Translations under genes and position numbers: made by a program
Notes under the pieces: generated by a model
The model's database searches: none
Seen by the model: the letters and a program-made list of their open reading frames with translations, nothing else
What the model was told of the DNA's origin: nothing
Shown: one piece after another, positions 32,540-59,631 of the stretch
Position numbering within the stretch: position 1 is the first letter of the stretch
How the letters are laid out: every line of letters begins with the position of its first letter
NCBI GenBank assembly: GCA_023078555.1
Contig: CM041196.1
Location: 11,364,985 to 11,428,984 of the forward strand
Direction: 5' to 3'
Length of the DNA stretch: 64,000 nucleotides
Origin: Ulva prolifera
Lineage: Eukaryota > Chlorophyta > Ulvophyceae > Ulvales > Ulvaceae

Positions 32540-32940
32540 TACGATATATCGGTGTTGGCAAGTAAACCTTTGCGTAGCCCGACCTTCTCACATCGCTTCA
32601 GCGAGATGTTGGCCGCGACCACATCGGTCGCGGCAGCGACCGCCGCTTTACCCGCTGACACTCCCCCCGGCCACCTCGACCCTCGTACGAGCCCCCGCAA
32701 CCCACAGCCCGTCCTCCTTTGCCTCCACTCGGCAGTCACGAAGGCCTACCACAGTAGGCACTACGGGTACCGCGCATGTTCCGCCCACACCCCAAGCATA
32801 CTCCTCGACACCCACCGCATTGCGGTCGCTTGCTGCGGCCGTCGCCGGGTCGTCCTGCCCCTGCCGCGATGCAATCGCCAGTCAACACGATCAATGCATC
32901 TATACACAGCGCGGCGTGAATGCAGTTGTTGTCAATGATG
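32540..32940 (-). pseudogene. Beta-helix gene relic BH3
   Basis: Minus-strand segment related to BH1 and BH2. It reads LIVLTGDCIAAGAG, then, downstream, LRDCRVEAKEDGLWVAGART and RVEVAGGSVS. The frame then shifts by one base and continues GKAAVAAATDVVAANISLKR. BH1 has the unbroken equivalent (LLNCRIVASKGDGLWVTGAD ... VATANDVAKANISL). The upstream half is missing or too diverged to see. It lies just beyond the right edge of block B. Confidence 0.6.
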
Positions 32941-35609: not shown

Positions 35610-38600
35610 ATGGACAATCTGGCCGACATCCTAGCAAGTGTTCAAGAGCAGGTCCCTGGACATGCGCAGCCGGTGGTCGACGCAATTGATGCATTGTTGC
35701 AGACCTCGTCGCGGCTGGCAACAGAGCTTGGAGACAGAGAGGAGAGGCTAGGTGCAAGCAGTGTATGCACAAAGGCACGTGCTTTTGTGGAGAAGGTCAG
35801 GAATCTGCAGGACGACAAGGTCTGCATCGTGATGGCCAGCAGCACTGCCGGCGCCGTGCCATAGTATTGTACACGGTTGCATCAACATATGCCTGCCCAT
35901 ATTTATGCACATCCACTGCATGTCCATTATTAATGCTGTCCACCTTCACACGTGCACTCAGGCTGGCAGGGATTCATAAGAAACTTCAATGCACATCTTG
36001 TTTCACGGAACCCTGTCAGCCTTCATGTCATGTCCACACGCTCACATAGATCTCATCAACTGGTTCTTCAGCCGTTTGTAAAGTAAAAGTAACTCTGAAT
36101 TTACTGAGCCGTATCCTATTGGACATTGACAACTCTGAATTAACTTGTCATACCCATGTCGCTGTAGTAGAGTGAATGCAAGAAGATAGTATCTTCTTGC
36201 ATTGGACATCACATGCATGCCATGTATCATTCATACATGATATATGCAACTACCAATGGGGCAGGCTGTTTGAAACAGTCAATCGGAGGGATCTGTCTGG
36301 AGCACGACGGCCACATCGAACAACTGAAGCATCTGGAGTGTTTATTGTTGATCTATGTTGACATATGCATGTTAGTTCTAGCTGACATTTGATCACCATC
36401 GGCCCCGAGCCCCGTGCGGCTTCTGCGGCTTCTGCGACCATGGCCATGTGTGCACATGCATATGCACAGACGTCATATGCACAGACGTAGAGGAGCTTGG
36501 AGGTGCCTGTACGTGTAAGTGCTGGCCCATTCTTAGCCAGACATATTACCTTGCACTATTTATACATGTACGGCTGCAGGATCGAAGGCAGGCCATCATG
36601 CAAGGTGTGCAGCAGCTGCTGCCGCTGCTCTTTGGGTCCATCTCCAGCAGTGTGGCCGCGGCCGTGAGCAAAATGGAGGGGATTGCACGCACTCTGGAGA
36701 GCTCCCACGCGTATGCTGCGGAGCACTTGCGCCACCTACAGAATACTCTTAAGGCCTTGGCGGCAAACAGAAACGTCGATGCATGCATGTCAGTCCTCCA
36801 GGAGAGCATGGTCAAGCTACTAGAGGGACATGGGGATGCCACTGCCCAAGTGCTGCGTGCCTGTACGTATATTGAAGAAAGCCTCAGCGGTGATCTACGC
36901 AAGCTTGGGCAGATGACAACTGCTGCAGTGTTAAAGCTGCATTGCCTGATCGAGATGCAGGACACAGTCAGCATTGCGGCGTTCCAAACACATCAAATGC
37001 TGAAAGAGCAGAGGCAGAGCATTGAAGACTGGAAACAAGAAAGCAGGACGCAGTACGAGACCATATCGCAGGCTCTTTCGAGCTTCATGACTTCTTCGGC
37101 AAACACTGGCAGCCACTCTACCTCTCCAGCTGGATCTCAGGCTGACGCACCGGTGAGATCTCATCCGGTTGCATGTGTATAGGGACTCATATATAGTTGC
37201 ACATGTCCTTGGATGCACATGTACATGTCCATAATGAACAATGCATGCAATGTACCCTTGACGTGTACATGTGCACCTCCGACTCAGGCTGGGCAATGGG
37301 TGGACATGCACACTTGGGCAGCCAATGCTGTAATTATGGTCGATGTCATAGGCTTCGGCTGCAACTGCGCACGCAGAAGTTGCGGCACGTAGGCTGCTAG
37401 CGGTGGGTGTCACTAAGCAGACGCAGAAGGTGGTGACGGAGTGCTGGCCATTGCCAATACGTTCTTGTGGCACAGTGTACATACATACAATACATACCAG
37501 GCTGCCGGTTGCTCCGAGCTGAGACCGATTTAACGTGCACAGCACTGTTAAATTTGAACCTCTGGTGGCATGGCCACACCACACCCCATGCATGCTATGC
37601 ACATGCACATGGATGTGCAATCCTCAGCAGCAGGGCATCTGGGATCACATGCAGACAGAGTCCAGTCGATATCATGGGTTGCATTGTACACGCCTACCGT
37701 GAACTCATGCATGCAGGTGTGTGATGCGTGCAGCGACACTACTGTTTCTGATGCCAGGTCAAGCCCTAGGGCACTACAGCCTGCAAACACTGCTGGGACT
37801 AGAAGTGCAATGTTGGGCCAATTAAAGATTACATCGTGTGTAGTGCTGGGCATGCCACTTTTGCTCGAAGGGCCCATGCGGCCGGTCACGTTGCCGTGCT
37901 GTGGCTTCGTGGTCTCCTTTGCGGGAGCGCAGATGCTAAGAACGTTCGGTCAATGCTACAGCTGCAGCGCTCCGATGTCTGCAACTAGTGCGCAACATCA
38001 TGGGTTCAGAAACAGCACAGCTGTGCACACAGAGAAGCTCGCTTTCTTACCGCGCGTCTTCAAGTCCGGTGAGGTGACAATTGTCGGCTCACAGCAGACC
38101 CATTCCAGAGGGGAAGCAACGCTGCGGTATGGGAGCATTCAAGTGCAAGACAGAAACAGTCACAGGCGAGTTGCGGTGAAGAAGGTCCCTCTTCCTGGCT
38201 CTTCCGGAGTGGAAGACTCTGTGGTGGCAGGGGTCATGCACGTGGTGTCAACCTCATACACTGCGGGGCTGGCGAGCCCGTACGTGTGCCAATTGCGTGG
38301 CTACTGCTGGACGGACTCCGAGATCTGGTGTGCTACGAGGTGTTCATGTGATGCTGGTGAAAATCAGCTGATTGATTCTGCTTAAAAATGGAACTTGTGC
38401 AGTAGCAAGCAAACACAACAAACATGTGCTTGTGCGCGCCGCTCATATAATGTGACTGTGCTGGGGGTGCACCATGGCAACACGGGCATATAGTCAACTA
38501 TAGATAGTCGACAGTGTGCGTGTTTTACAGGCTGTTGATGGCTTTGTGCACAGGCAGTCTTGCTGATCTGGTGCGCACGGTGCGGGCGAAGCAGCATGGG

Positions 38601-40328
38601 GGTGGTGCACGTGGCCTTCCTCTTGTTGATGTCGTGAACATTGGGCTGATGCTCTGTTCCGCTTTGGACGCTGTCCACAAGCGAGTGCGCTGCCTTCATC
38701 TGGACATCAGCCCCGGCAATGTTCTGCTCCTGCCTGCCTCTGCTGCCGCTGAACAATTCTCGCGAACTCAAAATTTCAGCGAGGCAGAGGTGTACAGCGT
38801 GCGGCTGACAGACTTTGGGTTGTCAAGGCACCTCCTGCGTGGACGCACAAAAGTGGCAGGGGCCCCTGGGGAGCCCTTGCTTCCAGGCGTGATAGATTTG
38901 GCGAAAGGCACGCCGGGATATGCACCGCAGGAACAGCTTCTGGGGTCGGCACAGCGACGGACTGACGTCTACAGCCTGGGGGCTACGCTGCTGTTCGCGG
39001 CTACAGGTGAAGACCCATATGTGAAGACATGTGACACCGCAGGAACAGCTTCTGGGGTCGGCACAGCGACGGACTGACGTCTACAGCCTGGGGGCTACGC
39101 TGCTGTTCGCGGCTACATGTGAAGATCTTCAGATATATACAGCGGGATGTCCGAAAATGACAAGGTCGAGTCTATTAAATCAGGTTCGACGCCACAATAT
39201 ACACGGGCATCATGTCATGGACCAGCCGACATACTATTGCGTTTGAAATGTGCATCTGAATCGTTTGTCTCATCTGATATCGCCAATATCGCAGCGTCTG
39301 CACAGATGATACTGCATGCATGCATGCATGCATGCGTCTGGAATGACTCTCCGCCAGATCCCAATTTCATGGCCGTCACACTACTAGTATGGGCAGGACA
39401 ATGTGTTTTCTGTACCCTGTCGGACATGACCACACAAATAGATGACACCAGCTTAAGCTGCCAGTGGAAAGTTCAGTCCATGTGATGCTCCGGCCTGCCT
39501 GTCCGTTCACAACTTGAAGATCATATGACGGACTTCAATCTGGCCAGCGACCGCGTGCACATGCACACGGGAACAAGAGCATCAACACCGATGTATACAC
39601 ATATGCGTAGAGCTGCTGAAGCGTGGGGGCTATTATATATAATCATTTATATTCTGTGCCGATCATCACTCGCGATCTAGATCTTCATCACTACTAGTAG
39701 TGGCACCTCAATTAGAATCACTGATAAAGTGCGAGCTCAGGCTTCTCCTGGCGCGCCCACGCCACTGTGCAACGTAGGTGTGAGAATGGCGGTACCAGAA
39801 GCTGACATGCCAGAGCCTCTGCAAGCCTTGCTCAGAGACATGACCGCCGTCAAACCGCACAAAAGGCCGTCCGTTTCACAGGTGCAGCAACGGCTGCATG
39901 ATGTCTACATTGCGGTCCTTGAGATACGAAGCACGTCTGGGGCGAATGCTCGACATGCATACATCACTCCCCATCAGAGAGAACTTCAAAATTCTTGTCA
40001 ACACACCAACAGCGCACCGAAGGATGCGACTGCTGAATCGGCTACTTCCATGGCCAGAGACCAGGCTGGCACACAGAGCGTTCGTGGGTCAAGTGCAAGT
40101 ACAAGCCGGGGTGTTCCCGAACGCACAGATCTAGACAGGAACTGGTCCAGGCCTGAGATTGGTGATGTCACCCCTCAGCCTGAACCTTGTTCAGATGTGG
40201 ATATGGGGGTGCGATCGGGCCTCTCGATTAATCCTGCGCAGGCCTGGCGCCAGTGCCAGTGGGCACGTGCACTTGCCTGTGGAGCAGTGATGATGTGGCC
40301 CTCATATGCATGGGGCACGAAATCATGA
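35610..40328 (+). CDS. U-box-like/protein-kinase protein K1, 823 aa in 6 exons
   Basis: Exons are 35610-35819, 36580-37152, 37717-38327, 38531-39006, 39133-39183 and 39778-40328. The phases are consistent throughout and match K2. Residues 1-261 are helical (GVQQLLPLL motif, coiled-coil-like). A U-box/RING-like segment at about 303-348 reads PVTLPCCGF ... CYSCSAPM. A protein-kinase domain follows: VAVKK with Lys at about 416, HLDISPGN with Asp at about 523 and Asn at about 528, LTDFGLSRH with DFG Asp at about 559, GTPGYAPQEQL, and the αF-like DVYSLGATL. The glycine loop is degenerate (VGSQQTHSRGEATLRYG) and the usual HRDLK Lys is Ser, so activity is possible but unproven. U-box plus kinase suggests intracellular signalling or ubiquitin transfer (inference). 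Confidence 0.78.
36078..36145 (-). mobile_element. SINE 3' fragment, copy S3, in K1 intron 1
   Basis: On the plus strand: GTAAAGTAAAAGTAACTCTG, then CTGAGCCGTATCCTATTGGA, then CATTGACAACTCTGAATTAA. This is the reverse complement of the SINE tail only, i.e. a 5'-truncated copy as expected from retrotransposition. It lies inside the first intron of K1. Confidence 0.75.
36177..36201. repeat. Short hairpin in K1 intron 1
   Basis: Arms TGCAAGAAGAT (36177-36187) and ATCTTCTTGCA (36191-36201) are perfect complements around a 3-base loop. No further context shows a role. Confidence 0.6.
38923..39117 (+). repeat. Exact 83-bp exon duplication within K1
   Basis: Bases 38923-39005, coding for the kinase segment APQEQLLGSAQRRTDVYSLG onward, are repeated without a mismatch at 39035-39117. 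The spacer is 29 bp. In the splice model the first copy is exonic and ends at donor ACAG|GTGAAG. The second lies in the intron, which closes at CTTCAG (39131-39132). It has no matching donor because ACAGG has become ACATG. Perfect identity implies a very recent event or an assembly artefact. Confidence 0.85.
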
Positions 40329-40351
40329 CAGCAATATGACACGGGGAGCCC

Positions 40352-42120
40352 ATGCCACAGTGTGCTCTCGGCCAGGTCCTGATACAAACAGCGAAAAAAT
40401 GTCTGGTACTATTGATGCTGTATTCCTGTGCTGGTGGGTATGTGACTCCAATTGGGCACTGCCGCCATGGCAGCCTCAGGTTGCTTGAGAATGGAACTGG
40501 GCACCTGGAACTTCGTGAAGACGGTGCCCGCGGCCGGGTGCATCGATACAAGCAAGTCATCGCCAACAGTGTGCAATGGCATTGTGCAGGATGCGAGCGG
40601 CATTAGCACCGTGGAGGACCTGTTCACGCACCTTCAATCCGAGAGAAGCGTCAAAATGTACGACTTCAACGGCCGCTTGCTCAAGCTCACCTCGAGGAGC
40701 TCCAATGTTGATTCGGAAGCGGTACCGGTATTATGTAAGCCAGCGAATCAGGCGAGTTCACAATCTCTGTCAATGAAGTGGATGTTGGGACAAAGCAATG
40801 TGGAGCTCGAGCTGAGGCAAGGTGGCGGCATCATATCCAATGTGACTCTCGAGTTGGGTGATGCTGAATGCATGCACCTCCGCGGATCAAGTTGGGTCGA
40901 GCTGCGCAACACCATCATTCATGGTGAGTGCACTTGACTGCTTCTCAAACGTCCTAATGCATGGCAACCTGAGCCGCTGTGATTGTACGCAAGGCCTGTG
41001 ACGTGCGCATGTGGTCGCTGTACATATTCACCCATATATGCATACTTCATATGAAGTGTATGTGGGCCGCAGCTGTCAATAGTTGCCCAGCTGTCACCGC
41101 AGCTGACCACCTCCAGGATCCGGCGAGGCGCGTTTTGATGCGAATGGCATTGCAATGGCCACGAATATAATTAGCTGGTCTGGTCTGGAAAACAGCATCA
41201 CTGTTGGCATGGCGCCATGAGAGACAAGCCGGCTCGTCATATCCATGCACAAGGCGCTGTATCCGATGGCATGTGCAACAATCAACCGCTCCGTGCATAG
41301 GCTAGTTTTCAAGATCATATTGAATGAGAGATATACAGCCAGGCATACACGTGTTCCTGGGCCACAGCATCCACTGGTGCCGCTGATTCTGCACCGGCGT
41401 GCAGGGGGGCGCCTCGAGTGTTCCGGCGATTGTTGCCACGTGGTGCTCAGAGGCGCTACCTTCAGCGATTGCCGGCTGCTAGCACGGACGGGCGCGACGG
41501 TACACCTCCATGGCGGGCACCTACAGGCCCTGCCACAACATGAAGCTAGAGGTATTCTGTGCGCTGCTGACGACCAGGGTACGACCGTGCATGCCAGGGG
41601 CACTACCTTCAAAGGCGAGATTGCCGCAACCAACGGCGGAGCCTTTGCCGGCGACCAGGTGCATGTCAGGCTGGAAAGTGAGGACGGCATCGCCGTCGCT
41701 GCTGCTGGTGCGGGCAGCAGCCTCACTCTGAGGCACTGTGACATCGCATCTGCCCCAGATGCTCCCCCTGCCATGTGCGCCGGTGTCGCCGTACATGATA
41801 AGGGCGTGGCCATCATGACAGACTGCACAGTTGAGAAGTTTGGGCGATGTGTCCAGATGAAGACAGGGGGCCGCGCCAGCCTTCTAAACTGCCGAATCGT
41901 GGCATCAAAGGGTGACGGGCTGTGGGTCACGGGGGCGGACACGAGGATCAAAGCGGCAGGGTGCTCCCTCCGCGGCGACTCAGCGGCGGTAGCTACTGCC
42001 AATGACGTGGCTAAGGCAAACATCTCACTAAATATGTGTACTGTTGGGTCAAGACGCACATTCCAGCGCACACCTCGAGCATGGTACCCCATAAGGGCCA
42101 GCCGGCAGCACCGCGTCTGA
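40352..42120 (+). CDS. Predicted beta-helix protein BH1, 413 aa in 3 exons
   Basis: Exons are 40352-40433, 40480-40923 and 41405-42120, all phase-1 junctions. The 46-bp first intron is the least certain part. The N-terminus MPQCALGQVLIQ followed by KKCLVLLMLYSCAG looks like a signal peptide. The body has imperfect repeats of short beta-strands with G/N turns: ELRQGGGIISNVTLELGDAE, VVLRGATFSDCRLLARTGAT, TTVHARGTTFKGEIAATNGG, GVAIMTDCTVEKFGRC and LLNCRIVASKGDGLWVTGAD. This is the pattern of right-handed parallel beta-helix (pectate-lyase-like fold) proteins; no catalytic set is recognisable. It begins only 23 bp after the K1 stop codon, on the same strand. Confidence 0.65.
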
Positions 42121-45100
42121 CCCGGCGCCGGGGCCACTTGGCACTGCTGCTGACCCAGGCGGAGGGAGATCCCCCCTCCTGGATTGCCAGATCCTTTAGC
42201 GGTGGTCGACTCAGCTCGCTGGGTCAGGCTGTCGGAGTTTTACCAGCTGTAGCCCCCCCCATGGGTGTTTAGTTTGATTGTAGAACCTTTGCCGCCGGGG
42301 CATACGCACGCAAATGGCTGCTTCAAGTTCACGGAGCTGCCGCGTGCGATATGACGCATTTGCTCGTAGACCCGAGGCTGCACTGCACAAAGTGCACATC
42401 TTTGCATGCCTGAGATATCGATGCTGCTGTCCACCAGCAGGGACATGGCCTCGGAAGGAGCATGTGCGATTATGCACCTGCTGTCAGGCTGGGTCAGTGC
42501 TCTTGAAAGAAGCAGAAAATGGTGAGGTGGTGCCGCAGGGTGTGGGAGCATGCTGAACAGCTTGCGCATGAAAGGGCTCCAGTGGCCAAGATTACCAGTA
42601 TGCCGAACTTCCATCACTAACATGTGCACAGCAAGATCAGTAGCATGTCCGACAGCAGTGAGTCACAGCAATCCACATGTAACATCCTCGCACATCTTCG
42701 TCGAGTTCCATCGCGCAACCGGCCATGAGCATGCCTTGCGCGCTGGAGCTTCGCTTGAATATATGTCTGCCTCCTGACATTGAACTATGCACTGCATCCA
42801 CAGTAGGGTTAGGCCGTATGCATGATGCCAGCCTGAGGTATAATTATAAGTCAGCCTGAGGTATAATTATAAGTCAGCCTGGGAACTAATAGCTTTGCGC
42901 TCATGTACCACAATGAATGCGGAAGAAGCATGCAGATTAGCCATGAGATTAACAGCGCGGCGATCTCACTACGGTTGTGGATGCAATGTGGTTAACCAAC
43001 TGGGGGCTGCAACCCCGGCCGCCCCTGCATACGATACCGTCCTCTGCTGATACAGTGCATGCAGTCTCCATATGTTGCAGGCTCCACAGCACAGCTCACG
43101 TGATGAGAGCTGCTGCCTCTGTGACGCGTGATGCGCCCTGCAGATAGTGTGTCCAGACACAGGGCGACCTCATGACCCCCAGGTGCAGGATCCGCAGCTG
43201 TTCTCGCGATTGTCACTCACAGCCACAGACGCTATCGCACCGCTAGCAACCACACATCCTGATGTGCACATGGTCCTCTATGCATATTGGCGCCCAACGA
43301 CACGTCCACGCTGCTCGCAAAATCTCTGCTGCTGGCGTGTGAAGGCGTGTCTAGCTTACTGCGATTGCATGGTGATGTACCCCAACGCGACCGTGCGCCC
43401 GGGCCATGTCGGCAGCGCCCTGCCGCCAAAACATAAAGCAGATCAAAGTGGTTGACAGGCTGTACAGCCTGCCACCGTCACATCTTGCTGCACCACAAAT
43501 CACGCTCAGCCATTGTCTAACGCAACCAATGGTGAGCATTGAGGCCCAGCTCATACAACGGGGGTCAGACTCCATGCGTGTGGTGTCCGAGACAGAAAGG
43601 CCCTATAGGTGGCGATGCTGTGGGAATTCAGCGGCCCGAGCTGCAGCCCAATCTCGCCATGGACACACCTACAACTAATGCCTTCTAGCTTACCCACTGA
43701 GGACCACAATGCAGAGCCTTTCTCAGCCTCAGTGGTGATGCGAACAGCGCTAGCATGCATGCACTGCAGTGTCATCGTGTGTGTATGTGTTGCTGTTGTT
43801 TCGGATGAGATTTGGTTTTGGTGTTTGTCTTCTCCCGTTCACTCTTTTGTAAAACATGCACTGCAGTACCCATCGGGTAGCGCACCTCCATGTTGTTAGA
43901 TCTGAACTGAAACATCTCCGTGAGCACAAGCTACACTGCACACTTTGCAAAATAATTGGGGCAGTGAGGCCTGGGGTGAAGACCATAGCAAGCCCCAGAA
44001 GAGTCTAATCGGGCATATCGAATGACATCTGAACCACAACGCAGCTATGTGCGTGACCAATGCTAGGATTCTTCAATGCGCAGAGAGCAGCTGTTTCACT
44101 GCTACCCACAGTGTGGCTGCCCGCTTTCGAGCGAGAAGGCTCCACGTGGCAGAGGTTCTGCACGGTCCCAAGTGTCTACGCAGATGTGGTTATGGTGGCA
44201 TCCTTCATACCGAAACAAGTGATACTTTTAGCGACAGGTGACTGTTGACTGCCCAGCGATAGACGAAAGACATGTGTGTGCAATTTGGTGGTGGGCAGTG
44301 TGTGAGATTGTAAGCAAGGTACTCACTCAATGCGTTAGGAGCTTGATTATACCGTTGACGTCCAGAATGATAATTACACAGCGTCTATCAGACAGGACAC
44401 GCTGATCTCCTCTGCCAACAGCTGGAAAACGGCATCAGCGTCAACTCTGATCAACGACTCCTCAACAGTGGCAAGCCGCGTTGCAGCTGCGCTGGCAGAC
44501 GAGATTTATACACTGTAAAGAGCTTTACAAGTCTGTACGAAAATGAATATCCGTTTGCACACTGAAATAAGACGGACAGTGCATCAGATGACAAGCCCTG
44601 CGTGTCTCCGAGACATGTTTCAGACTGATCGCGACAAGCTTATCACGACACAATCTCAAAACTGCGTATGCATTCGACTCTGTTTGTATCCGGAGAAAGT
44701 GGCGGGAATCGTCTCGATGCGGCCCGCAGTGGATGCATCAGCGTATTCATGCATGGCAACAGGGATCTCGAGGTGTACACACACTACAGCTGGATATTGT
44801 CAACTGGACAATAAAAACAAATGTGGTCACACAGCGGCCGCAGACAGCTCAGATACAAGTAGTAGCATTACATCAGATCTAATTACAGAGTCAGCGCAGA
44901 TCCGCCTTGCCAGAGCTCGGTCCTGACCGGTCCATCGTCGTGTTCCCGCCACCAACGGCAAGCTCTTGACCACAAATGCTTGTCCAACACCGTCGTCAAT
45001 TGTTCGCTGAAAGCGCTGTGATTTTGTGTCACCGGAACCGGCCGTTGCACGTCCATCTGCCAGCCTGATCGTCCCGGAGAGGTGACAGCCCGGTTGATGG

Positions 45101-46030
45101 CTAGTACAGCCCCAGGTATACTACTAAGCTTTACGTGGCGTCGAATTATACGATCATATTGTTTTGCATTCGTGATGCATCGGGTATACGTGCACAAAGC
45201 TGACCTAGCGCACTTTCCCGCCTATTTATTTACAGCTGTTGCGCTGATCATGAGCCTCGTACCTGACCGATGCTCAGCAGCCTCGTCTGTTGCTGTTGGG
45301 ACGTTGCAGCATGTGCAGCTGCTGTGCCTCGGGATGTTCCGCTTGCTTCCGCTGAAGGTGTGCCTGCAGCGTCATGGTCACAAGAACGGTGTCACTGACA
45401 GATGTGCAACGATCTCATAGTGATACATTGTGGGCCCGGATTCTACCATGCATATCTTCCGAGTGAAGCGGTATGGCTCAGGCCTGGCATCTAGCGTATC
45501 ACAGAACAGCGGCACTCACAAGTGCACCAGTACAGCAGCAGACTTCAGCAAGTGTCGGCGAAACACACTGCGGCAAGGTAGTGCCTGAACTTGTTGCAAA
45601 ATGTGGCCTGTCGCAGAAGCCAGCAGTCAGTCTAGACATGCACGTATGCCACCCCAGCCAGTCATGTAGGCAGATTGTGCATTAGCTCGAGTGTGTTACT
45701 TGCCTGCCCCAGCTGGGGCCCCAGCGCAGCCTCAGATGTTAGACTTTTACCGCCTGTATTGGCAGCTCAACAGCACAAACAGCAGGCATACGACGTAACT
45801 CTGTATGAGCTCCTTAGTGCCAGACATGCTGCATGATAAGATCTCAAAGAGTCAACTGAATTGGTGCATGTCAGCCTGCGAGGCGTGGAACAACTGCAAA
45901 ATTCGACTGCTCAAAGCACCAACGCCTGAGGCACGCCTGTGGCCATCTGCACGGCGCATCTTGAGGTACCGCGAGAAGTACTGCCATTAGTACTACCAAT
46001 CTGGGCCAGTGATGAGCTTAGCACTACCAA
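42121..46030. other. Unassigned intergenic stretch
   Basis: No gene is supported. It contains a 23-bp direct repeat, CAGCCTGAGGTATAATTATA plus AGT, at 42829-42851 and 42852-42874, and repeat D3 at 43771-43854. The open frames at 43147-43455, 43406-43678, 44543-44926 and 45082-45420 on plus and 44883-45197 on minus lack domains and paralogues. The minus frame (QRPVPVTQNHSAFSEQLTTV, then DKHLWSRACRWWREHDD) is the most protein-like of them. Confidence 0.4.
43758..43867 (-). mobile_element. Repeat family D, copy D3, with 13-bp TSD
   Basis: The insert 43771-43854 (84 bp) is flanked by perfect CATGCACTGCAGT copies (43758-43770 and 43855-43867). On the minus strand it starts TTTTACAAAAGAGTGAACGG and continues with ACAAACACCAAAACCAAATC. 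The clean duplication shows that both ends of the family can be defined here. Confidence 0.85.
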
Positions 46031-46147
46031 TCGTCTGAGGGGGTTTTCCAGGTGGTTTACCCCTTCGGCATATTTGGACCCGTTAATTCGGAGTTGTCAA
46101 TGTCCAATAGGATACGGCTCAGTAAATGCAGATATACTTTACTTTAC
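46031..46147 (+). mobile_element. SINE, 5'-truncated, copy S4
   Basis: It starts at CGTCTGAGGGGGTTTTCCAG of the SINE body and runs through GAGTTGTCAATGTCCAATAG to the TTTACTTTAC tail. The tRNA-like head is missing. It is followed by CAATAGTATAC with no clear duplicated target. Confidence 0.8.
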
Positions 46148-46149
46148 CA

Positions 46150-47360
46150 ATAGTATACATGCATTGGTGTGACCGGCTACTGATCTTGATATGCACGTGG
46201 TGTGGTGAACTAGCTGTTGCAACAGCTAGTCTGTGCCCTCTCGAGCTCCCCGCAGTTCAGTGCAAGCCACGCTGCACGCGACCGCAGCCTGTACCAGCAC
46301 CACTGCAATCCTACTGTAAACTCTCTGTACAGCTGCACTACCCCGGAGCACCGTGTCGCCACTAGTGCCACACCGCCGCGCCTGCGAGGCACATGCACAT
46401 ACTCCTGCCCTGTCTGAATCGCTGCTGACGGGAACAGCAGCGACTGCTAGTAGGGCTTGCAATCGGAGCGCACATCTTGGCTCTGGATGCAGCCACGGGC
46501 ATGCGTGTGACAAAGCCCTAGCCCCACCCAGCTAGCCAGCTTTTACAACCCTTCTCTCACATTGCCAGTCGACCTAATATTCACATGAGCAAGGGACCGA
46601 CTGTGATCGACTGGATCTCAGCTCCACATTTTAAAGATTGTCGTTAAGATTATTCTTGTCTACAGATGTGCATGCCCGGATACCACATGTTGCAGCACAA
46701 ATGACCAGGATTTTTTTTCTAGCGTGGCCCGGCCCTCCCAAAACACGTGCCCCACAGCCGTGGAAAAAGCAGTATACCGATCGTGTAGACTGTATAGCTG
46801 AACGTGGAGCCCTTGCGAAGCAAATACGCCTCGAGGCTGGACTCCGAAGTGTCTTGTGAGGGTGATATTCGTCCTGCATCAACGTGCACCGGTACCGCTC
46901 TCGCGCAGCTGATCAGCACGGCACAAGCTTGGTAAGGTGCACCGGGGAAAATCTCAGGCGGTGTAGATGCGATTCGCGCAAGCGCTTCGGCTGTGTCTGC
47001 TCAGCGTACGTCTCCGTGCATTGCATGGAGGATCCGGTTCGAATCGAATTCGAGCCCACGAACCCGCCCGCGCTACCTCGGTGGACTCCTGCTCCGGACA
47101 TCATCACACTCTTTTGATTGTCGTATCGTGTCTGATCAGATCACGTGCAGATCCGATATCTCACACATTATTGGCGAGTGGACTGCACGGCGCTGTCGTC
47201 GCGACAGCTCCTCCAAGCAATCATCTGACCTTATCTGGCTCTGGATCATAACATGCCGTACATTCTGTCAGTTGGAGTAGGAATTCTGTGGCAAGGGCGA
47301 CCGCTTACAGGAGCTGTACGCAGTACCGTCACCATTGATGTCCAAACACTATTCATGCGC
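46150..47360. other. Unassigned stretch
   Basis: Short overlapping frames only. A weak similarity between 46500-46560 and 48020-48070 (CCCACCCAGC, then AGCCA) suggests that the 3' flank of the beta-helix genes was also duplicated. No repeat or RNA gene recognised. Confidence 0.35.
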
Positions 47361-47380
47361 GAATGCGTCAATCTTTTCTG

Positions 47381-47653
47381 CTACGGATGTCCCCAATTGA
47401 ATCAGATACAAGTGTGCTCGCGGCTCTGAAGGAGGCTCTGCTGCTTCTGGTGCCCAGCCAGCAGCTCCAGGCCAGCATAGGCTCCAGTGGGCCACTGCAA
47501 CCACTGCATCCCTCGCTTCTCGTAGCTACGCCGTGGTCATGCTTGACATACTGCTGGACGGTGTGTTTGTGGCGGCTGACACAGGGTCACATTAGCGAGT
47601 CTTGGTGTGCCACAGCTCGTTGCACCACTTGTGCAGGTGTAGTCAAGGAATGA
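47381..47653 (+). CDS. Exon X1 of an unknown gene, paralogous to X2
   Basis: The plus frame reads MSPIESDTSVLAALKEALLL, then LVPSQQLQASIGSSGPLQPL, and ends in TGA. A second copy at 59367-59540 reads MSPASVYGVPAGALLLLV, then TPSQKVQASTGSSGLLQPL, in frame. Conservation at protein level supports coding origin. No domain is recognised; the Leu-rich stretch could be a signal or membrane segment. Borders are uncertain. Confidence 0.4.
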   Translation, partial: LRMSPIESDTSVLAALKEALLLLVPSQQLQASIGSSGPLQPLHPSLLVATPWSCLTYCWTVCLWRLTQGHISESWCATARCTTCAGVVKE

Positions 47654-48356
47654 GTGCCCGCTGCAGCAGACAATCATCGCCACAATGTTCCGTTGATGGG
47701 TCATGCCTCCGATTACTATGGCCTGTGATCACTGTCTGTCCTGGGATGTGACTCGACCTCACGGCGCACTACCATGCTAATGATTCAGGTGCACTGCCGT
47801 TGCATGTTTCGGTAGACCGTGTGGCACGCGTGTGCATGTACTGGTGCACTTGCATGTGTCAAAGCCGTTCCATCGGTCAGAGCTATATTTTTATTACCCG
47901 TCTGCTGTAATGAACAGGCCCTGGTGCCACACCACCGAGACACCAGTGCGCACTGCAGTGCCCCAGCTCCCAGAAGCGGCCACAGGTGTGCGCATGCATG
48001 CATACATGTAGGGCGAAAGCTCACCCTACCACCCCACCCAGCGAGCCAACTTCTTTGAACTCCCTTGCAGAAACCCACGTTTTTCTACCTGCCCCGGCAC
48101 CAGGCTAGGATGGGTGTTGCCAGCTGGAGGGCCATCCGCGCGCACAAACGTCCGTGTTGGCCCGGCGACGCACCGCACCAGCACAATGTTCGCAGCGGCC
48201 ACGTCGGTGGCGGAGGCCACAGCCGCAGCACCGCCGCTGAGGGTGCACCACTCCGCCTCGACCCTCGTGTCCGGCCCCTCGACCCACAGCCCGTCCACTC
48301 TCGCCTCAACTCGGCAATCGCGCAGCGCTGCGCCCGGGCCCCTGCCACCATCACGC

Positions 48357-48640
48357 CCGTCTCAACCCGCCCCACAGTACAGTTGGTCACCTCAAGCACA
48401 GCGATCATCTGTAGCACTGCGATCCTATTGGACCGGTTGACAGCCGTCAACTCTTATATCAATGAGAATACAGCGTGCCTGTACAGCAAGTCAGCCCAGC
48501 ATTGTGCAGGCTGTTCGCTACTTGTCTGTTCCATGCTCAGCACGCTGTCTGCGCTTTCTTGCTGGTTCGTTTCTCGTGCAGCGAGCCGCTGTCCGTCTCA
48601 ACCCGCCCCACAGTACAGTTGGTCATCTCAAGCACCGCCG
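48357..48640. repeat. 45-bp duplication within BH2
   Basis: A 45-bp block starting CGTCTCAACCCGCCCCACAG occurs at about 48357-48401 and about 48595-48639 with two mismatches. Each encodes the same beta-strand turn (TNCTVGRVET) on the minus strand. It looks like a duplicated coil of the helix, with about 190 bp of unrelated sequence between. Confidence 0.75.
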
Positions 48641-49264
48641 TGTTGCATGCACACACGCCAATGCGCTGCCCCGGGGGACGTCCGCCGCCGGGCGTGCTCG
48701 TACAGGCCTTCAGTTTGACCTCAGGTCTGCTTAAGGAATTCCGCCGCCGGCACCGATGCCGCAATAGTCCGTGTCACCCAGTCTGACATGCACCCCGCAC
48801 CCCGTGAAGGCGCCGCCGTAGAGCACCCCGATCTTACCGTCAAAGGCGGTATTGTCGGCGCTCACCTTCGAGCCCTGACCCCTCGCGGCGCAGATGTACA
48901 TGTACTCGCGCGCGGCGGTCTGCGGCGGCAGGGCATGCATATGCATCTGGCCGCCGTGGAGGTGCGCCGACGCCCCCCACGCCCCACGCCGCCTGCAGCC
49001 GCAAAAGGTGGAGTCTCTGAACACCACGTGGGACTGCTTGCCGTTGCACGTGTGCCGCCCGCCTGCACAGACTTCGGCGGTGACTGTCGCCTGTGGACAC
49101 AATGGCCCGGCAAGGCTCAGAACCGTGTCAGAATTGGCAGCCATGGCCGCATCCTTCGCTGCGCTGGTAATCATCCTTGAGCATGCACATGCTGGGATCG
49201 TCCTGTGCATAGATGACATCACGTTGCCAACCTGACTCTGCAGTCACGTAAACGTTTGCGCAGC

Positions 49265-49322
49265 CTCGCGCCCGGCTCAACAGCCATCATCAGGGCCTCG
49301 CGCCCGGCTCAACAGCCATCAT
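49265..49322. repeat. Tandem direct repeat of about 28 bp
   Basis: CCTCGCGCCCGGCTCAACAG followed by CCATCATC is present twice, separated by four bases. It lies between the K3 terminal exon and the second BH2 part. Confidence 0.7.
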
Positions 49323-49337
49323 CGCAAAGAAGAGGTC

Positions 49338-50289
49338 TCACAGAGCGGTCGGCTGCAGATACTCGGGAACCGCCATGGCTTTGCCTACAGAGAGACACGA
49401 AAGACTGGAGGGGGCTTGACTCGTGATTACACACGCTTGAACACCGGCGCACGCCGCAACCCTATCTTTCAGGCCGCCGGCAACTGCCATCGAGCAGTGT
49501 GTGCACGTGGGCACCAGTCTTGGGTACCCGACGTCGCTTTTCAACCATTTCTAGGACTGCTACCCCGAAATTGGCTCTGAATATTCGGAATTGTTCTATG
49601 TGATCGGGCCCGACGACCCAACACTGCAGCACGCCGCCACCAGTGCTGGGTCCTCGGGGCCGATCATATGTATCAATTCTGAATATGCAAGTCTGACTTC
49701 TGGGTGACAGCCCTGGACATGCTGCAAAGCGACCCAGCACTGGTGGACGCAACGGGCCTCGATGTGGCATGCATGTGTGAAACAACAAAAACGCCTCGCA
49801 GCCGCCACAGCACAGGTGTTGAAACTATGCTCAATCCTAGGCACACACGTGCGCCATTGGCAGCACACCTAGAGGTAACACACTTCAGGAAATACGTTAG
49901 AGCAACCAAGCTTGTATCCGCTTGTACATGATCGACTACGCCGCCATGCCCCCGAACGGGGGACTACCTGTTGCCACGTACAGCAACGTCGCGCCCAGGC
50001 TGTAGATGTCGCTCCGCCGCCGCGCCTCGCCTTCGAGCTGCTCCCTGGGCGTATACCCTGGTGTGCCCTGGGCCACACCATGCACGAGCGAGCTAGAAGT
50101 AGCTTTTGCCAGGGAGGTGCGCACGCAGGAGGGGAGATGTTTGCACAGTCCAAAGCCCACACTACGGGACTCGCGATTGTCGCCTGTCAGTGCCGTGCCC
50201 CACACAGCAGGAGCTGTAAGAAGGACGTTGCCGGGGGTCATATCCAGGTGGAGGCAGTGGGGGCCCGGGGGCACTGGGGGCCCCACCAT
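49338..50289 (-). pseudogene. Truncated kinase-like relic K3
   Basis: It covers only the kinase C-lobe (50289-about 49903) and a final mini-exon (49384-49338). It reads CLHLDMTPGNVLL, then SVGFGLCKHL where the DFG Asp is Gly, then GTPGYTPREQL and DIYSLGATLLYVATGSPPFG. A CAG codon of K2 has become TAG after GGMAA. The K2 donor AAG|GTGAGG reads AAG|CTTGGT here, so it is lost. The last exon keeps phase (GKAMAVPEYLQPTAL, stop). The N-lobe and everything upstream are absent. It lies between the first and second parts of BH2. Confidence 0.7.
49515..49742. mobile_element. Back-to-back hAT-type MITE pair, copies M7 and M8
   Basis: M7 (49515-49626, plus) and M8 (49641-49742, minus) lie 14 bp apart in inverted orientation. 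Each has recognisable ends: CAGTCTTGGGT ... CGACCCAACACTG and CAGTGCTGGGTC ... GACCCAGCACTG. Together they form an imperfect palindrome of about 230 bp. Neither keeps a clean 8-bp duplication. They lie in the K3/BH2 region upstream of the small K3 exon. Confidence 0.8.
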
Positions 50290-51760
50290 GACACAGTGCC
50301 TGCTGCCGCAATGGAGTACGGCCCCTGCACAAGACTGCCTTTCTGTTAGGAATCAAGATATTTGTGATTCGTTCGGTATCACTTTTGTGGCCGAGCGGCC
50401 GATGGAGGCCGTTGCCCGACAAGACCGAGATGTTCACACGTGGCATCACCTTGAGAAGCTGAAGCTTGTGCGCGAGACAAATGGGTTCCTGGATCTATGG
50501 ATGAATGGGTCATGCTGTGCATTGAACGTGTGTGCTGCCGTGGGGTGGTGGGTCTGTTCGACTATCAAGTCATGGGTGCAGCCTTCGATTTCGGAGGCTC
50601 CCCAGAGCAGGCACAGTCACCGCGAAACTCGAAAACGCGATGCTCGATGGCCCTGTGCTGGATGGCCCCCATGAACATGTGCACACGTACGGCTCACGGT
50701 CGGGTTGACCTGCATCACCCCGGTGAGGAAGTAGCCAAGCGCACTGACCCTAGATTGTGACGTTGCAGATCTCGTTCTCGCTTGAGCCAAACAGGTGCAT
50801 CATGCAATCATCACTGCCCAATTCCCGTGTCACGTTGGAGACGACTCCGATGCCTCGCCTCAGCTGAGCACAACTTTCTATCAGAATGTTCAGGTGGTGT
50901 GTGGCCACTCCCTGAGTCACAGGGGCCTTCCAGTTGGAGGTGAACTCCAGCGTGCGCCCACCACGTGCTGCGGCCAAAGGTGCATGCTGGACGTGCTGCC
51001 ATGGACTTCACAAACAGCCCCTCCGCTTGCCGCTCACATCCTGCGCATGATGAGCTCGGACTCGTTGCCGACGCATGCGATTGCGAGACGACCGAGACAT
51101 CGGCAGTGTGCATGAGCAGTGTACATGGGCGAGCAGACCCGCAAAGCCGGGTGCAGGATTCCGGTTGTGTTTTCACTTGTGCACACGGACGCGGCTGAAT
51201 TTCATGCATACGCACATACATTCCGTTTGTGGCGAATACTTTTTGTACATTGCGTGTGGCTTTGTGCAAAGGGAACGCTCATTTGCGCCGTATGGGGCTG
51301 CAACAACCTAGGGCAAGTATTGCCGGTAGGGCTGTGGTTCGAAGCTCGTGCCCGGCCAAGTGCCATGAACGAGTGAGTGTGGCTGAGAATACATTCCGCC
51401 TGACGGTAGCATGCCCGGCCTCCGTCCTTTGTAACTACACTCAGATAAACATACATGTTGACGGGCCCAGTAGGGCATTCATGTGAGCATTGTTACGGGC
51501 GATCCTGCACGGGCGATCTGATGCATGTATGCTCCACGTGAACGCCGACCAGCATCTTGCGCGAGTGCACGCTCGGCTCCTGCTTGACAACGCAGCACCT
51601 CTGTGACACATGAAAACTGTGATGGCACACCTCATCGCGGCCGCCCTGTGACCTCGCAAGCTTAAGGGGGGGCCTGCTGTGAGGACAGGCCTGGTATAGG
51701 CTGAATGTCTGCCGCAGCGTCCGATTGTAGATCTCGAACAGACTGAATCTGGAGCTGAGA

Positions 51761-51827
51761 TCCCCGCGGCCATTTCGAAGTCTCTAGCAATTCGGAACTG
51801 CTAGAGACTTCGAGATGGCCGCGGGGA
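51761..51827. repeat. 29-bp inverted repeat at the 3' end of K2
   Basis: The left arm 51761-51789 and right arm 51799-51827 are complementary with about two mismatches around a 9-base loop. The right arm and loop encode the last residues of K2 (VPAAISKSLAVPNC), and the stop codon lies at the edge of the left arm. The hairpin would form in the K2 transcript. The stop codon may have been created by this inversion event. Confidence 0.75.
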
Positions 51828-54800
51828 CCTCGAGCTCGTCGGCCGCCTTCTCACCTGTTGGAGCCATGCAAAGAGCGTCCTCAGGCTTCTTGGTACCGCT
51901 GGTGGGCATGTGGCTAGCAGGGGCGATGAACTTGTTTGCTGCGCCCTCTGCTAGCAGAGCATGGTAGATGCCCTGAAGCCGCCGCTGCACCTCTGCAAGT
52001 GCCGGCCTATCACCCACCTGAGCAGCCGTCATGGAAATGAGGAGGTGCCTCAGACCTGGTGGCTGCACGTACGCGGGCACCGCCACAGGTTCCCCTGCGC
52101 AACACCGAGTCACATGTGCTTAATTCACCCGAGAAGACACACCAGAAGAGATGGCCAAGATGCCTCAGAGACATCTCGACCCAGATTTGGTTGAGTCTTT
52201 TTCAACGAATATTCGCCGTCTCTTGCGGAGTTTATGCTCACGTTCATCACCATATCCTAAACACCCATGGTGGCCACACCATACCAATGTGTGCAACACA
52301 TGTGTGGGCAATTAATTGCAGTATTGCCTCACCTTGTATCAGCTTAAACATCACCGACTGCGCCGGCATGCCCCCGAACGGGGGACTACCTGTTGCCGCG
52401 TACAGCAGCGTCGCGCCCAGGCTGTAGATGTCGCTCCGCCGTTGCGCCTTGTCGCACATGTACAGCTGCTCCCTGGGAGCATACCCTGGTGTGCCCCGCA
52501 CCACGCAATGCACTGGCAAGCTGGAATTAGCTGTTGCCAGGGAGTTGCACATGCAGGAGGGGAGATGGTGGGACAGTCCCAGGACGGAGAGGCGAACGCC
52601 GCGGGACTCGCGATTGCCGCCCGCCAGTGCACGTGCCTCCCCCGACGCAGCAGGAGCTGTAAGAAGGACGTCACCGGGGGTGATGCTCAGGTGGAGGCAG
52701 CGCGCCCTGTGGTGCACAGCGTCCAGCGCAGAGCACAGCTTGATGCCGAGCGCAACAGTGTCCACAGGTGGGAGGCCGGGCAAATCGCACAGCTGGCTGG
52801 CCCGAGGCACAAGGTGCGCAAGGCTGCTCTCGCACAGCTCCATCAGCAACCTGCACTTTGGCATGGCTTGGCTTTGCTTGATGCGTGTCTGGCGGATGAG
52901 CAAAGCAATCAAGGCATACTCTGTGCGTAGGTTACGTTGCTCACGCATGAGCCCATAACAAAAGATGCAGGTGATGTTCAGGAACAGGCACATATACTAA
53001 ATAATATAGTATGTGTACATGGGTGAGAAAGACGAGAGTGCCACATGAGCATCTGGAACCTTAGCCAGCTCCAGCATCTGCAGAAGCGCAACATGCTTTG
53101 CCTATCATCACACAGGGAGCAACATGCTTTGCCTATCATCACACAGGCAGTGCCTGTAAAAGTGGGACAGCCCTGGCAACGGTTTTGACCACGGCCACTC
53201 TATACGCTGATGCCCTGCGGAGACCATGGCCCCTCTCTACGCCGAAGTGATCACATCCGGATCCTGATCAGCTGATGTGATCACTTCGGCGTAGAGAGTG
53301 GCCACGGTCATACGTGGTCACGGGATCAGCGTTGAGATAGACTTCTCAACGGCTGTGCCTCAGTGTCAGACGGTGTCCGAGAACAGAGCGCCAGCGGCAA
53401 ACGCGGTCTCACATGTACAGAGGGCAGCTACAGCGCCGCCATTCCTCTGTCATTGTTATATTGATCCTATGGACAAGCGCACAGAACACACCACAGCTCA
53501 GAGTCCGTCCAGCAGTAGCCGCGCAGCTTGCACGCGTACGGACTCGCCACCCCCGCGATGAACGATGCGGAGACGACGTTCCTGATGCTCGCAATCTCTT
53601 TCGCTCCTGCCCCCGCAGGCAACCGGATCTGCCTCACGGCAACTGCCCTGCCGCATAGTGTCCCCTTCACCACCGTGCCCTCCGCACCCGAGCCAATCTT
53701 GCCATTGGGATCAATGCTGACATCTTCCCTTCGGAATACGCGAGGTGCAAAGCCGTTGCCCTCCGCCGCGACGGCCGCGGCCACCGAGTCGCTGTCTTGA
53801 AGCTCCGTGCCGATCGTCAGTGGAGCTTTGCAGACTAGGCACTTGCCCTTCTCCAGCAGCTGCTGTGCTCCGGCATGGGAGAGCACAAAGCCGCAGCACG
53901 GTAGCGTGACGGGCCGCAGAGGCCCCTCGGGCATAAGGGGCACGCCGAGCTCGAGACATGCCGTGATGGCAAGTTTGCCGGAGACGATCCCTTCGCGGAT
54001 CGCAGCAGCCCACTTCTCATTGCTGTCTGGCAACGCGCTGCCTTCACCTGATGCAAGCATCTCATCGATGGCCTGCACGTGCACAGCCGACTCCTCGTGT
54101 ATGCAGGCATGCATGAACACCGAGTCACTGTGCACACGTGTGCCGTCTCGGAATTAATCGGATCCGATCACCCACATACACCCGAGCGGATACTATAGTC
54201 ACTGTCTTAAGTTACACATACCGGGCCATTGTATGGCAAAGCAAATCAATACATCAAGCTAACACACACAACAAGCTAACAAGCCAAGCGAGCGGCCGCC
54301 ACACGTACGAGCAACCACTAGAACTTGGGTAACTAGAACGCATCCCAACAAACAACCCGGATACTATAGTGGTACCCCAAAAAGTCTCACTGCACGCATG
54401 CATGGCTGCGGACAGAAGGAGGAACAGCGGACTCTGGAGCTCTGGATCCAGGCCTCAGGCTGGACTCTGTAATGAGCACTACTAAAGTATGCATGAACTG
54501 AACCAGCACTGGACGGCCGGCGCGATTTCGCATCAGGAACAGGCGCGCCAACATCCCCAGCTTGGCTTCCAGCTTATGCCATACTGTGCGATGGGTCTGC
54601 CACGCACCGCTCGGATGCGTTTGGGCAGCATGGCCTGAGCGCCGCTGCCCGCCATGCCGCAAAGGCTCGCAAGGCACTCCATCACCACCTTGAGGTCAGC
54701 GCTCATCTCCTGCTGCAGTGCCAGCATCTGCCGAGAAAACGAGTCATACGTGTGCTGCAGCATGTCCACAGCCTCGAGCACTCCGGCTATACCTGCGGCG

Positions 54801-55419
54801 AGCTGCTGCTGCAGAGCGGCGGAGCCCTCCAGAACCTTGGCCACACCGGCATCATGCATCTGCATCATGCTGGCGTGCAGGGTGGCGATGCACTCCTCTA
54901 CCTGCGCTGAGGTGGCGCTGGGGGCCGCGAGTGTAGAGACGGCCGCCTGGAGGTGGCTGAGGTGTGCGGCGGCCTCGAAGGAGGAGCCCTGGAGGGAGAC
55001 GGCACGGCGCTGGAGGTCGGCGACGGCGGCAGAGACATCCGCAGCGGATGCGATGGAGACCGTGAGGAGGGGGAGTAGCTGCTGAATCCCTTGCATGATC
55101 GACTTCATTCTGTCCTGCACTGCTGCTGCCGTACATTGCTCACTCATGAGGCTTGAGCTGATTCTGTTTGAAAACAGCGAAGTGTCGATCTAGTGTGAAG
55201 CTTAGACTATCAGCTGATAATCATGCGGGCCCGGGTCTAGCGCACCGTCTCTTTATGCAGGTGCCACACGCTGGAAGCAAACCCCCTCGCGGCGTATTTG
55301 GCACTCTTGGAGGTGGCGGTGGCTACCAGGGCTGCAAGTTCGCGAGCCACCGGCTCTGCGTGCTGCGGCACGCTGCCCTTTAGCTTGACGCCCTCGAGTG
55401 TGCGCGCAACATTGCTCAT
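51784..55419 (-). CDS. U-box-like/pseudokinase protein K2, 696 aa in 5 exons
   Basis: Exons on minus are 55419-55246, 55114-54608, 54072-53492, 52850-52333 and 52094-51784; phases agree with K1. The N-terminal 227 residues are helical (IMQGIQQLLPLL; many Ala/Leu/Gln heptads). The U-box-like segment reads PVTLPCCGFVL ... GKCLVCKAPL. The kinase fold keeps an intact glycine loop (GSGAEGTV) and GTPGYAPREQL, but VAVK is VAVRQ, HxD is HLS (SITPGD) and DFG is VLG. All three catalytic sites are lost, so it is predicted to be a pseudokinase, perhaps a scaffold or regulator. An unbroken 696-codon frame suggests that it is still maintained. The 3' end lies in a hairpin. Confidence 0.78.
53088..53147. 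repeat. Two 29-bp tandem repeats in K2 intron 3
   Basis: GCAACATGCTTTGCCTATCA followed by TCACACAGG occurs at 53088-53116 and 53119-53147. Simple duplication, no further structure. Confidence 0.8.
53186..53310. repeat. Nested foldback element in K2 intron 3
   Basis: Outer arms TGACCACGGCCACTCT (53186-53201) and AGAGTGGCCACGGTCA (53295-53310) are exact complements. Inner arms of 25 bp at 53233-53257 and 53274-53298 (CTCTCTACGCCGAAGTGATC...) are also exact. The whole could fold into a long hairpin in DNA or pre-mRNA. It may be a MITE of another family; no target duplication is obvious. Confidence 0.8.
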
Positions 55420-55429: not shown

Positions 55430-57100
55430 CCTCACTCCAACATGTCAGCTGTGCACTGGGGTGAGCGCGATTTCGTACACAGCTGTACGTGTATACCGCA
55501 GCGCACATCTGCAGAGATCTTAAGAATTCGCGGGCAACGAAACGCAGTCCAAGATTTGCAAATGCTGAGACAGCTGAGTCTGGAACATGGACACGGCGAA
55601 CCGGTGACATGTTGAGTGTCATGATGCCGTTCTTCCCCGGGCTTGCTACGCCCACCCAACGCCATGGCTGCCCCCACGAGCTGCAGCTCCGACATGTTGA
55701 CGGAGCTCCACATGTATTACAAAAGAGTAAACGGGACAAGACAACACCACAACAGAATCTCATCCGAAACATCAGCAACATACACACAATCACACCACAA
55801 CCGCGCCCACACCATGTCCATCTGCGACTCAACGCCCTGGTGCAGCTGCAGTCGCAAACATCACGGCACGTCGAGACTGCTAACATGATGGGTCCTCGGC
55901 GAACTTACTCCAATAAACCACTACGGATCGTCGCTGCTGCTGAGTTGACACGCAGATCTACATGTGCATAGGATCCTCGACGTGTACTCGCGGCCACCAG
56001 ACTACAATCCAGTGCGTAGAGTAGACTGAAAAGTACCTATAAAATTCTGAATGCCGATATGCAGTGATTGGAGCCGGCCATGGCCGCACGCGAGACAAGA
56101 ATAAGCTGAAGCGCACAGCGCGAACGTCTTCAACTCTCCCTCACGCGACCGGTACAACTTGAACAGGTCATTCGCTTCCTTGATGATCGAGCAGAGAATG
56201 CTATCCACTCCTGGGGGGAGGACGTCCATCTCTGTCGTAGGCCAGGCTGCCCCAGGCAAATGCGCTCGTCCTGTATCTCGCGCGTGCGCACCTCTTCCCG
56301 CCTTTGGTGGCAGTCGAAGTCCCTGATAATCTAATCAATCTGCGGATGAAATGCACAGCTGACAGACGCGCGTGGACACACTTCGTCGGATGTGAATGGA
56401 GGCAAGTTTAGCTGCAGGCATCGCCCAATCGCCAATCGACTCACGCCCGAGCGGAACCTCCAGCACATGTGCGCCGTTCAATCATCAATTTTGTATGTTA
56501 CGTGCTGGCAATCACAGCAGCAGATCAACCTCCGTCAGAGACTCGTACGTTCCATGTGCAAGGCAGCTGCCCTCAGATTCCGCAGCACACCTCCAGCACA
56601 TGCATGTCCGCCAGCCCGGGCACTCCGTGCAAGTGTTTGTGCGCCTCATGGCCAATCTGTAGACTCAAGAAGAGTCTGAATTTTACTGGGCCGTATCCTA
56701 TTGGACATTGACAACTCCGATCTGTAGCTGTACGCTCACCTGGGCTCCGGTCCACAGTCAGCTAGCTGCAGATCATATGCGTGTTCCGATCTGTGTCTAT
56801 TCGAATGATCACAGGAGCATGTAGCGTAGGCTCGTCCTGGATGTCAGTGGCCCGGACTTGGCTCAGGACGTGACAATTGCAAACGGCATCAGATTCATGC
56901 TGTCGGAAACAGGATGATGTAGGCCCAGTGGGGCACGCATCGATGGGTGCGGGACGTGGGCATCTGATTTGGGCACATGCCCAGCTGGCTGCGCATATCA
57001 CATGCATGTGACATATGACAGCACCTGCAGATCAACGATGACTACTCAGGCGGAGCGCACACCGCAACCATCGACAGTGCGAGATAGACAAACATATATG
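55430..57100. other. Unassigned stretch with repeat pieces
   Basis: No supported gene. A family D copy (D4, plus) lies at about 55715-55805 (ATTACAAAAGAGTAAACGGG ... CATCCGAAACATCAGCAACA). A SINE tail fragment S5 (minus) lies at 56672-56720 (CTGGGCCGTATCCTATTGGA, then CATTGACAACTCCGA). Overlapping frames at 55416-55971 arise from the repeat and flank and are not conserved. Confidence 0.45.
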
Positions 57101-57160
57101 ACATATGTCCAATAGGATACGGCTCAGTAAATTCAGATTTACTTTACTTTACATATGACA
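57101..57160 (+). mobile_element. Very short SINE tail insertion, copy S6
   Basis: Only 47 bp of the SINE 3' end (57106-57152: TGTCCAATAGGATACGGCTC ... TTTACTTTAC) is inserted in a CATATG-rich context. ACATATG-like sequence occurs on both sides, compatible with a short target duplication. This extreme 5' truncation is typical of abortive reverse transcription. Confidence 0.75.
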
Positions 57161-59540: not shown

Positions 59541-59631
59541 GCTGCTGGTCGGCATCGTCTGTTGTTGGCGATTGACCGGGTCACACTGTCCCTGCTCGGT
59601 GTTGCGCAGCTCCGAGTCGTTGCACTGCATG

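Follow-up and report, generated by a model that had tools for sequence, protein, structure and literature searches.

Tandemly expanded Ulva prolifera genes join a protein kinase to a predicted β-helix with one diversifying sheet: candidate intracellular recognition receptors

Results

Gene content of the locus

The window analysed here, a stretch of 64,000 nucleotides from the green macroalga Ulva prolifera (contig CM041196.1; C1:11364985-11428984), carries two genes, denoted W1 (left arm, 35610-42120, plus strand) and W2 (right arm, 55419 down to 48145, minus strand), that combine a kinase part (K) with a β-helix part (BH). In keeping with this source, the plastocyanin encoded in the genome, with two exons joined, matches PDB 7pcy, from Enteromorpha (now Ulva) prolifera, at 98 of 98 residues. 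Exons 2-7 were detected with six profile hidden Markov models (HMMs), five of which had W1 among their seeds and none W2; splice boundaries and intron phases were read by eye from the sequence. Pfam cut-offs are 31.7 bits for Pkinase (PF00069) and 25.9 bits for Beta_helix (PF13229). The features are listed below in window coordinates, a slash marking the splice junction.

35610..35795, plus: W1 exon 1, helical, starts with ATG; donor AAG/GTCAGG, phase 0
36580..37152, plus: W1 exon 2, helical; HMM match, boundaries by eye, phase 0 on both sides
37717..38327, plus: W1 exon 3, RING/U-box-like finger and kinase N-lobe (AVAVKK); HMM match, donor phase 2
38531..39074, plus: W1 exon 4, kinase C-lobe (HLDISPGN, DFG); HMM match, Pkinase 42 bits
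38923-39013 and 39035-39125, plus: tandem duplication within the W1 C-lobe exon; DNA self-comparison
39778..40208, plus: W1 exon 5, kinase tail; HMM match, proposed donor GGG/GTGCGA in phase 0, end inferred
40590..40923, plus: W1 exon 6, first BH exon; HMM match, acceptor CAG/GATGCG, no initiator ATG
41405..42120, plus: W1 exon 7, second BH exon, stop codon included; HMM match, Beta_helix 26.2 bits, modelled as a right-handed β-helix
55246..55419, minus: W2 exon 1, helical, ATG at 55419; sequence reading
54608..55114, minus: W2 exon 2, helical; HMM match
53492..54072, minus: W2 exon 3, RING/U-box-like finger and N-lobe, VAIK lysine replaced by arginine (AVAVRQ); HMM match
52333..52850, minus: W2 exon 4, C-lobe of pseudokinase type (HLSITPGD; VLG instead of DFG); HMM match
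51787..52094, minus: W2 exon 5, kinase tail, donor not identified; HMM match
50752..51040, minus: W2 exon 6 relic, first third out of frame, TAG directly ahead of the donor; HMM match
49944..50259, minus: additional C-lobe copy between W2 exons 6 and 7; DNA self-comparison and HMM match
48145..49069, minus: W2 exon 7 relic, fragments in differing frames; HMM match

By its exon structure W1 is a nearly intact gene copy, in which the catalytic motifs AVAVKK, HLDISPGN and DFG are kept. Its C-lobe frame closes at 39075-39077 because of a 112-bp tandem duplication (91 bp, 98.9% alike); were a donor after base 39006 used instead, exon 5 would be joined in phase 1 and the damage bypassed. W2 is a pseudogene, since its first BH exon has lost the frame and carries a TAG, its second BH exon is fragmented, a C-lobe has been added and the catalytic motifs are altered (VAIK lysine, HRD aspartate and DFG). 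The added C-lobe has 81.5% DNA identity to W2's own exon 4 over 368 bp, and the C-lobe exon of W2 scores 29.5 bits, below the Pkinase cut-off. Intactness of the parts in both arms is borne out neither by the broken W2 nor by the closed frame of W1. An extra fragment of BH exon 7 lies outside both arms (32583-32770, minus strand; E 5.5e-8 and 2.6e-4, HMM).

Copies across the genome

With the exon-3 protein as query, a search of the genome (88.9 Mb, 44 contigs) listed 26 strong copies, a lower bound that includes both window copies. G1-G8 form a tandem cluster at C1:12.26-12.42 Mb, at least 0.84 Mb from the window, and G11 is close by at 12.45 Mb. The remaining copies are found on C9, C4, C2 and C36, the last of which is perhaps another copy of C9 sequence, because its matches score the same. 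Read in this way, the family is tandemly expanded, with intact and broken members (besides W2, G6 and G9 are broken). Viral contigs were scanned twice, with alignments of BH and of the finger/N-lobe; no relatives turned up, and a viral origin was rejected on that basis. The large clusters lie towards contig ends (C1:12.26-12.45 of 12.74 Mb; C9:0.06-1.15 of 5.68 Mb).

The sequence-only reading had stressed the repeated co-occurrence of K and BH on the same strand, and the genome-wide adjacency check agrees: in 16 of the 26 listed kinase-exon copies a same-strand BH match follows no more than 9 kb downstream, at a spacing of 2.2-3.2 kb in 15 and of 4.4 kb in W2, where chance linkage is ∼ 0.001 per BH (6-kb reach). 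HMM matches add diverged BH exons behind three more copies (H1, H2 and H4), giving 19/26 listed. Of the 10 copies unmatched at first, six were read further, and the other three of these (H3, H5 and H7) showed no BH in ∼ 3 kb of additional sequence. Seen from the BH side, 23 of 36 match rows have a kinase upstream and 13 have no kinase match, which weighs against exclusive linkage. Three such BH loci (L066, L064 and L063; C9:187040, 197033 and 204831, plus strand) hold both BH exons with no kinase match upstream and perhaps represent a different type of gene. A similar finger is present in three distant kinases (L036-L038), two of which have a long N-terminal part that looks helical; the 3.5 kb read there showed no BH, and no BH match row of the genome search lies nearby.

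Relationship of the two arms

The arms had been proposed to be a single mirror-image duplication with seven parts in equal order and identical intron phases. The order is real: the HMMs recover exons 2-7 on both arms, left (plus) and right (minus), in matching order, and exon 1 begins at the outer positions originally given for both, 35610 and 55419. Exon 3 of W1 aligns with that of W2 at E 7e-49, so that the shared seven-exon anatomy is far beyond chance. As to phases, the claim holds for introns 1-4 (0, 0, 2, 1 in W1, W2 and relatives alike), whereas those of introns 5 and 6 (0 and 1) are clear only in W1 and relatives.

The duplication itself is rejected on identities, tree and topology test. 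Protein identity between the arms is 36-51%, exon by exon, and self-comparison of the window gave only a few DNA matches of 55-99 bp each at 79-86% identity, so the arms are barely recognisable as alike in DNA. Over the kinase exons W1 and W2 share 50% identity, W2 and G1-G8 67-69%, and W1 and G1-G8 54-55%. A 20-copy tree places W2 with G1-G8 and H7 (support 91/93) and leaves W1 outside that group; a constraint making W1 and W2 sisters was rejected by the approximately unbiased (AU) test (p-AU 0.013), to be read with caution as both are long branches. On this evidence W1 and W2 are two old, independent, diverged family members lying tail to tail. The tail-to-tail layout recurs immediately downstream of G3 (L059 1503-2251), G7 (L065 1524-3210) and G5 (L067 1524-2612), where minus-strand relics hold kinase-tail and BH exons, with no kinase exon in the stretch read.

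Kinase and β-helix in one gene

K and BH had been taken for two paired proteins, one intracellular and one secreted. That they are separate adjacent genes working as a pair would fit their constant adjacency, as well as the exon-5 frame of W1, which hits a stop 120 bp ahead of the next open frame. The splice sites make this most improbable. The last kinase exon of relatives G1-G9 ends GAG/GT in phase 0, and the first BH exon starts CAG/GAYGTGAGYGG in relatives and CAG/GATGCGAGCGG in W1, likewise in phase 0 and without a start codon. Because BH lacks its own start and has a conserved acceptor in phase with the kinase tail, the two are best joined in one polypeptide. Spliced models of G1, G2, G3 and G7 read without a stop from exon 1 into exon 7, and that of G5 from its locus edge, with near-constant exon lengths (168, 513-525, 596, 482-494, 407-410 and 286-289 bp).

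Four relatives (G1, G3, G5 and G7) carry a second pair of BH exons, and these supply the strongest evidence. In these genes, exon 7 continues in frame via a ∼ 70-residue linker to AGCGGTCACGAG/GTGTGC, which duplicates the end of exon 5 together with the donor, and exon 6' (286 bp) and exon 7' follow in frame. An in-frame duplicated exon-5 donor is sensible only if this donor joins the kinase tail to BH, which again indicates a single gene. As the splice models stand, K and BH are one seven-exon gene encoding a helical region, a RING/U-box-like finger, a protein kinase, a linker and a right-handed β-helix, and some relatives encode two β-helices in tandem. A crude hydropathy test on five gene models revealed no apparent signal peptide or membrane span; the protein is therefore probably intracellular. 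A separate secreted BH protein is rejected on splice phases and hydropathy.

Domain assignments

Assignment to the protein kinases is supported by the W1 C-lobe exon (score above) and by the joined exons of G2 (94.3 bits), whose catalytic motifs are AVAVKQ, HLDITPGN and DFG. Most copies retain AVAVK, HLD and DFG; leucine stands in place of the HRD arginine, and most copies have lost the loop lysine. G11 and H7 are also without DFG and, like W2, look like pseudokinases by their motifs. The Beta_helix model scores above its cut-off in W1 exon 7, and just below it in G2 (25.7 bits) and G9 (22.5 bits). The structure of BH, predicted with modest confidence, also matches right-handed β-helix folds.

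The finger has CC and CxxC cysteines that are invariant in 8/8 aligned copies. Naming the kinase U-box-like, as in the sequence-only reading, finds no support: none of 19 proteins scanned up to E = 1, nine of which contain the finger region, matched Pfam U-box (PF04564), and the U-box label was dropped. Three of the nine gave weak, sub-cut-off matches to Rtf2 RING (E 0.02-0.21). The predicted structure of the finger (predicted local distance difference test score, pLDDT, 35.8) was too poor for a fold search. No NB-ARC or LRR match appeared in a full Pfam scan of G2; with no membrane span in the five models either, nothing in these scans places the family among the plant NLRs or the LRR receptor-like kinases.

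Selection on the β-helix

Kinase and β-helix have evolved differently within the same genes. In the independent close pairs G1-G3 and G5-G7, the ratio of non-synonymous to synonymous differences per site (pN/pS) is 0.23 and 0.27 for the kinase exons, 0.45-0.46 for BH exon 1, and 1.11 (unit 1) and 1.09 (unit 2) for BH exon 2. The contrast between kinase and BH is significant by Fisher's test in 6/6 gene pairs (p 1.6e-5 to 0.018), which are not independent of one another. A site analysis of exon 7 assigned P(dN>dS) > 0.9 to 19 of 223 codons, 12 of them above 0.95, compared with 0/341 codons in the kinase exons and 1/97 in exon 6.

An exon 7 with an overall pN/pS near 1 could also be a decaying β-helix, its variability stemming from relaxed constraint and gene conversion instead of selection; several members are broken, as noted for W2, G6 and G9, and conversion is likely in tandem arrays (exon 7 of G2 and G4 is identical). 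We regard decay as improbable. Purifying selection (P > 0.9) acts on 85/223 codons of exon 7 and the frames remain open, and three null models, relaxed constraint among them, gave at most two diversifying sites in 12 simulations each, against the 19 observed. Moreover, the variable sites are ordered: they return at intervals of 20-30 residues and often lie at i,i+2 positions (5 pairs versus 1.5 expected, p 0.012), and 13 of the 15 that fall within modelled coils of the predicted β-helix lie on one sheet, sheet A (p 1.5e-7). A tree-free count gives pN/pS of 2.04 for sheet A versus 0.46-0.66 in the remaining coils. For the main cluster, the computations show a kinase that is conserved by purifying selection while the outward residues of one sheet of the predicted β-helix diversify.

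Discussion

A conserved kinase joined to a solenoid with one diversifying exposed face is best read as a receptor. Unusually rapid change of this kind is also seen on the recognition surfaces of immune receptors. We propose that the family encodes intracellular, kinase-coupled recognition receptors with a ligand-binding β-helix, most likely sensing non-self, and put the probability of this at roughly 0.6. The β-helix would be the solenoid that binds the ligand, much as a leucine-rich repeat does with its variable face; a ligand on the diversifying face would relieve or trigger the kinase, which would be the output. The finger perhaps recruits an E2, and the helical region may assemble a complex. 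Duplication together with diversifying selection fits the detection of changing non-self molecules, which would most likely derive from the alga's bacteria, viruses or parasites.

A perhaps immune role is suggested by analogy: microbe sensing is the likeliest of several uses given the brown-algal ROCO receptors and the wheat kinase fusion proteins. The fuller proposal, that these are tandemly expanded, germline-encoded intracellular kinase receptors of a green macroalga in which a hypervariable β-helix sheet is the immune recognition module, is tentative, and we would not yet bet on it. The same sequence evidence, together with the RING/U-box-like finger beside the kinase, would serve a receptor-like gene that diversifies for a non-immune use, such as self/non-self or gamete recognition, or the choice of the alga's own proteins by a kinase-E3. 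In the latter version the β-helix would be an arm that holds substrates to be phosphorylated or tagged with ubiquitin, like that of F-box/β-helix proteins. Those proteins, FBXO11 for example, couple the ubiquitin machinery to a β-helix substrate arm; the Ulva family shares the β-helix, has no F-box and has a kinase. A non-immune use seems to us unlikely, if worth keeping in view, as the many copies in tandem, the pseudogenes and the duplication of BH within genes suit non-self recognition better.

The closest folds of the predicted BH include pectin methylesterases, pectate lyases and alginate lyases, and the cell wall of Ulva is rich in polysaccharide, so that the β-helix might instead be a polysaccharide enzyme attached to a kinase. 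We give this very little credence: the fast-changing residues sit on a sheet face, an intracellular location is unlikely for a wall enzyme, and sequence identity to those enzymes, which are secreted and share the right-handed parallel β-helix fold, is 5-15% among the matches listed.

The receptor design we favour has partial counterparts. Brown-algal LRR-ROCO and NB-ARC-TPR proteins are described as candidate immune receptors with diversifying selection and repeat-exon duplication (PMC11378527). Like the Ulva family, they join an algal intracellular signalling protein to a repeat solenoid under diversifying selection with a proposed immune role; they use GTPase/NB-ARC signalling and LRR or TPR recognition with one repeat per exon, whereas the Ulva family has a kinase and a β-helix, the bulk of which is in a single exon. 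Wheat Sr43 and Lr9, kinase fusion and tandem kinase resistance proteins (PMC10260397, PMC10260399), similarly combine an intracellular kinase with another domain and a proposed non-self detection, in another lineage and with other partner domains. Plant U-box kinases (PUB family; PMC5542650, PMC8875423) also hold a ubiquitin-type finger and a kinase in one protein. Unlike these, the Ulva proteins have a finger missed by Pfam U-box, the order finger to kinase and a C-terminal β-helix, and no UspA domain was reported in the Pfam scans made of them. We know of no β-helix in the wheat kinase fusion or tandem kinase resistance proteins.

In the open-access literature (subscription journals lay outside the scope) we found no described receptor of this build and no paper treating right-handed β-helix, protein kinase and green alga together; nor, judged from titles and the starts of abstracts, one on a U-box/protein kinase/β-helix fusion. 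Pathogen detection in green algae is, to our knowledge, poorly known. If our reading is correct, a β-helix with one face diversifying under selection would be added to the known solenoid recognition folds, taking the part of the leucine-rich repeat in immune-receptor design. A direct test is possible, since the residues that vary, the kinase and the gene cluster have each been identified.

Other features of the window

A dispersed repeat family of 45-280 bp occurs in both orientations at 22411-22510, 36077-36144 (within W1 intron 1), 46031-46147, 56675-56720, 57105-57156 and 60588-60851. Two more pairs of paralogous stretches lie in direct orientation (7981-10347/23503-26121 and 20020-22223/30324-32069), and tandem arrays are present at 59628-60114 (step ∼ 65 bp) and 19193-19476 (step ∼ 15 bp).
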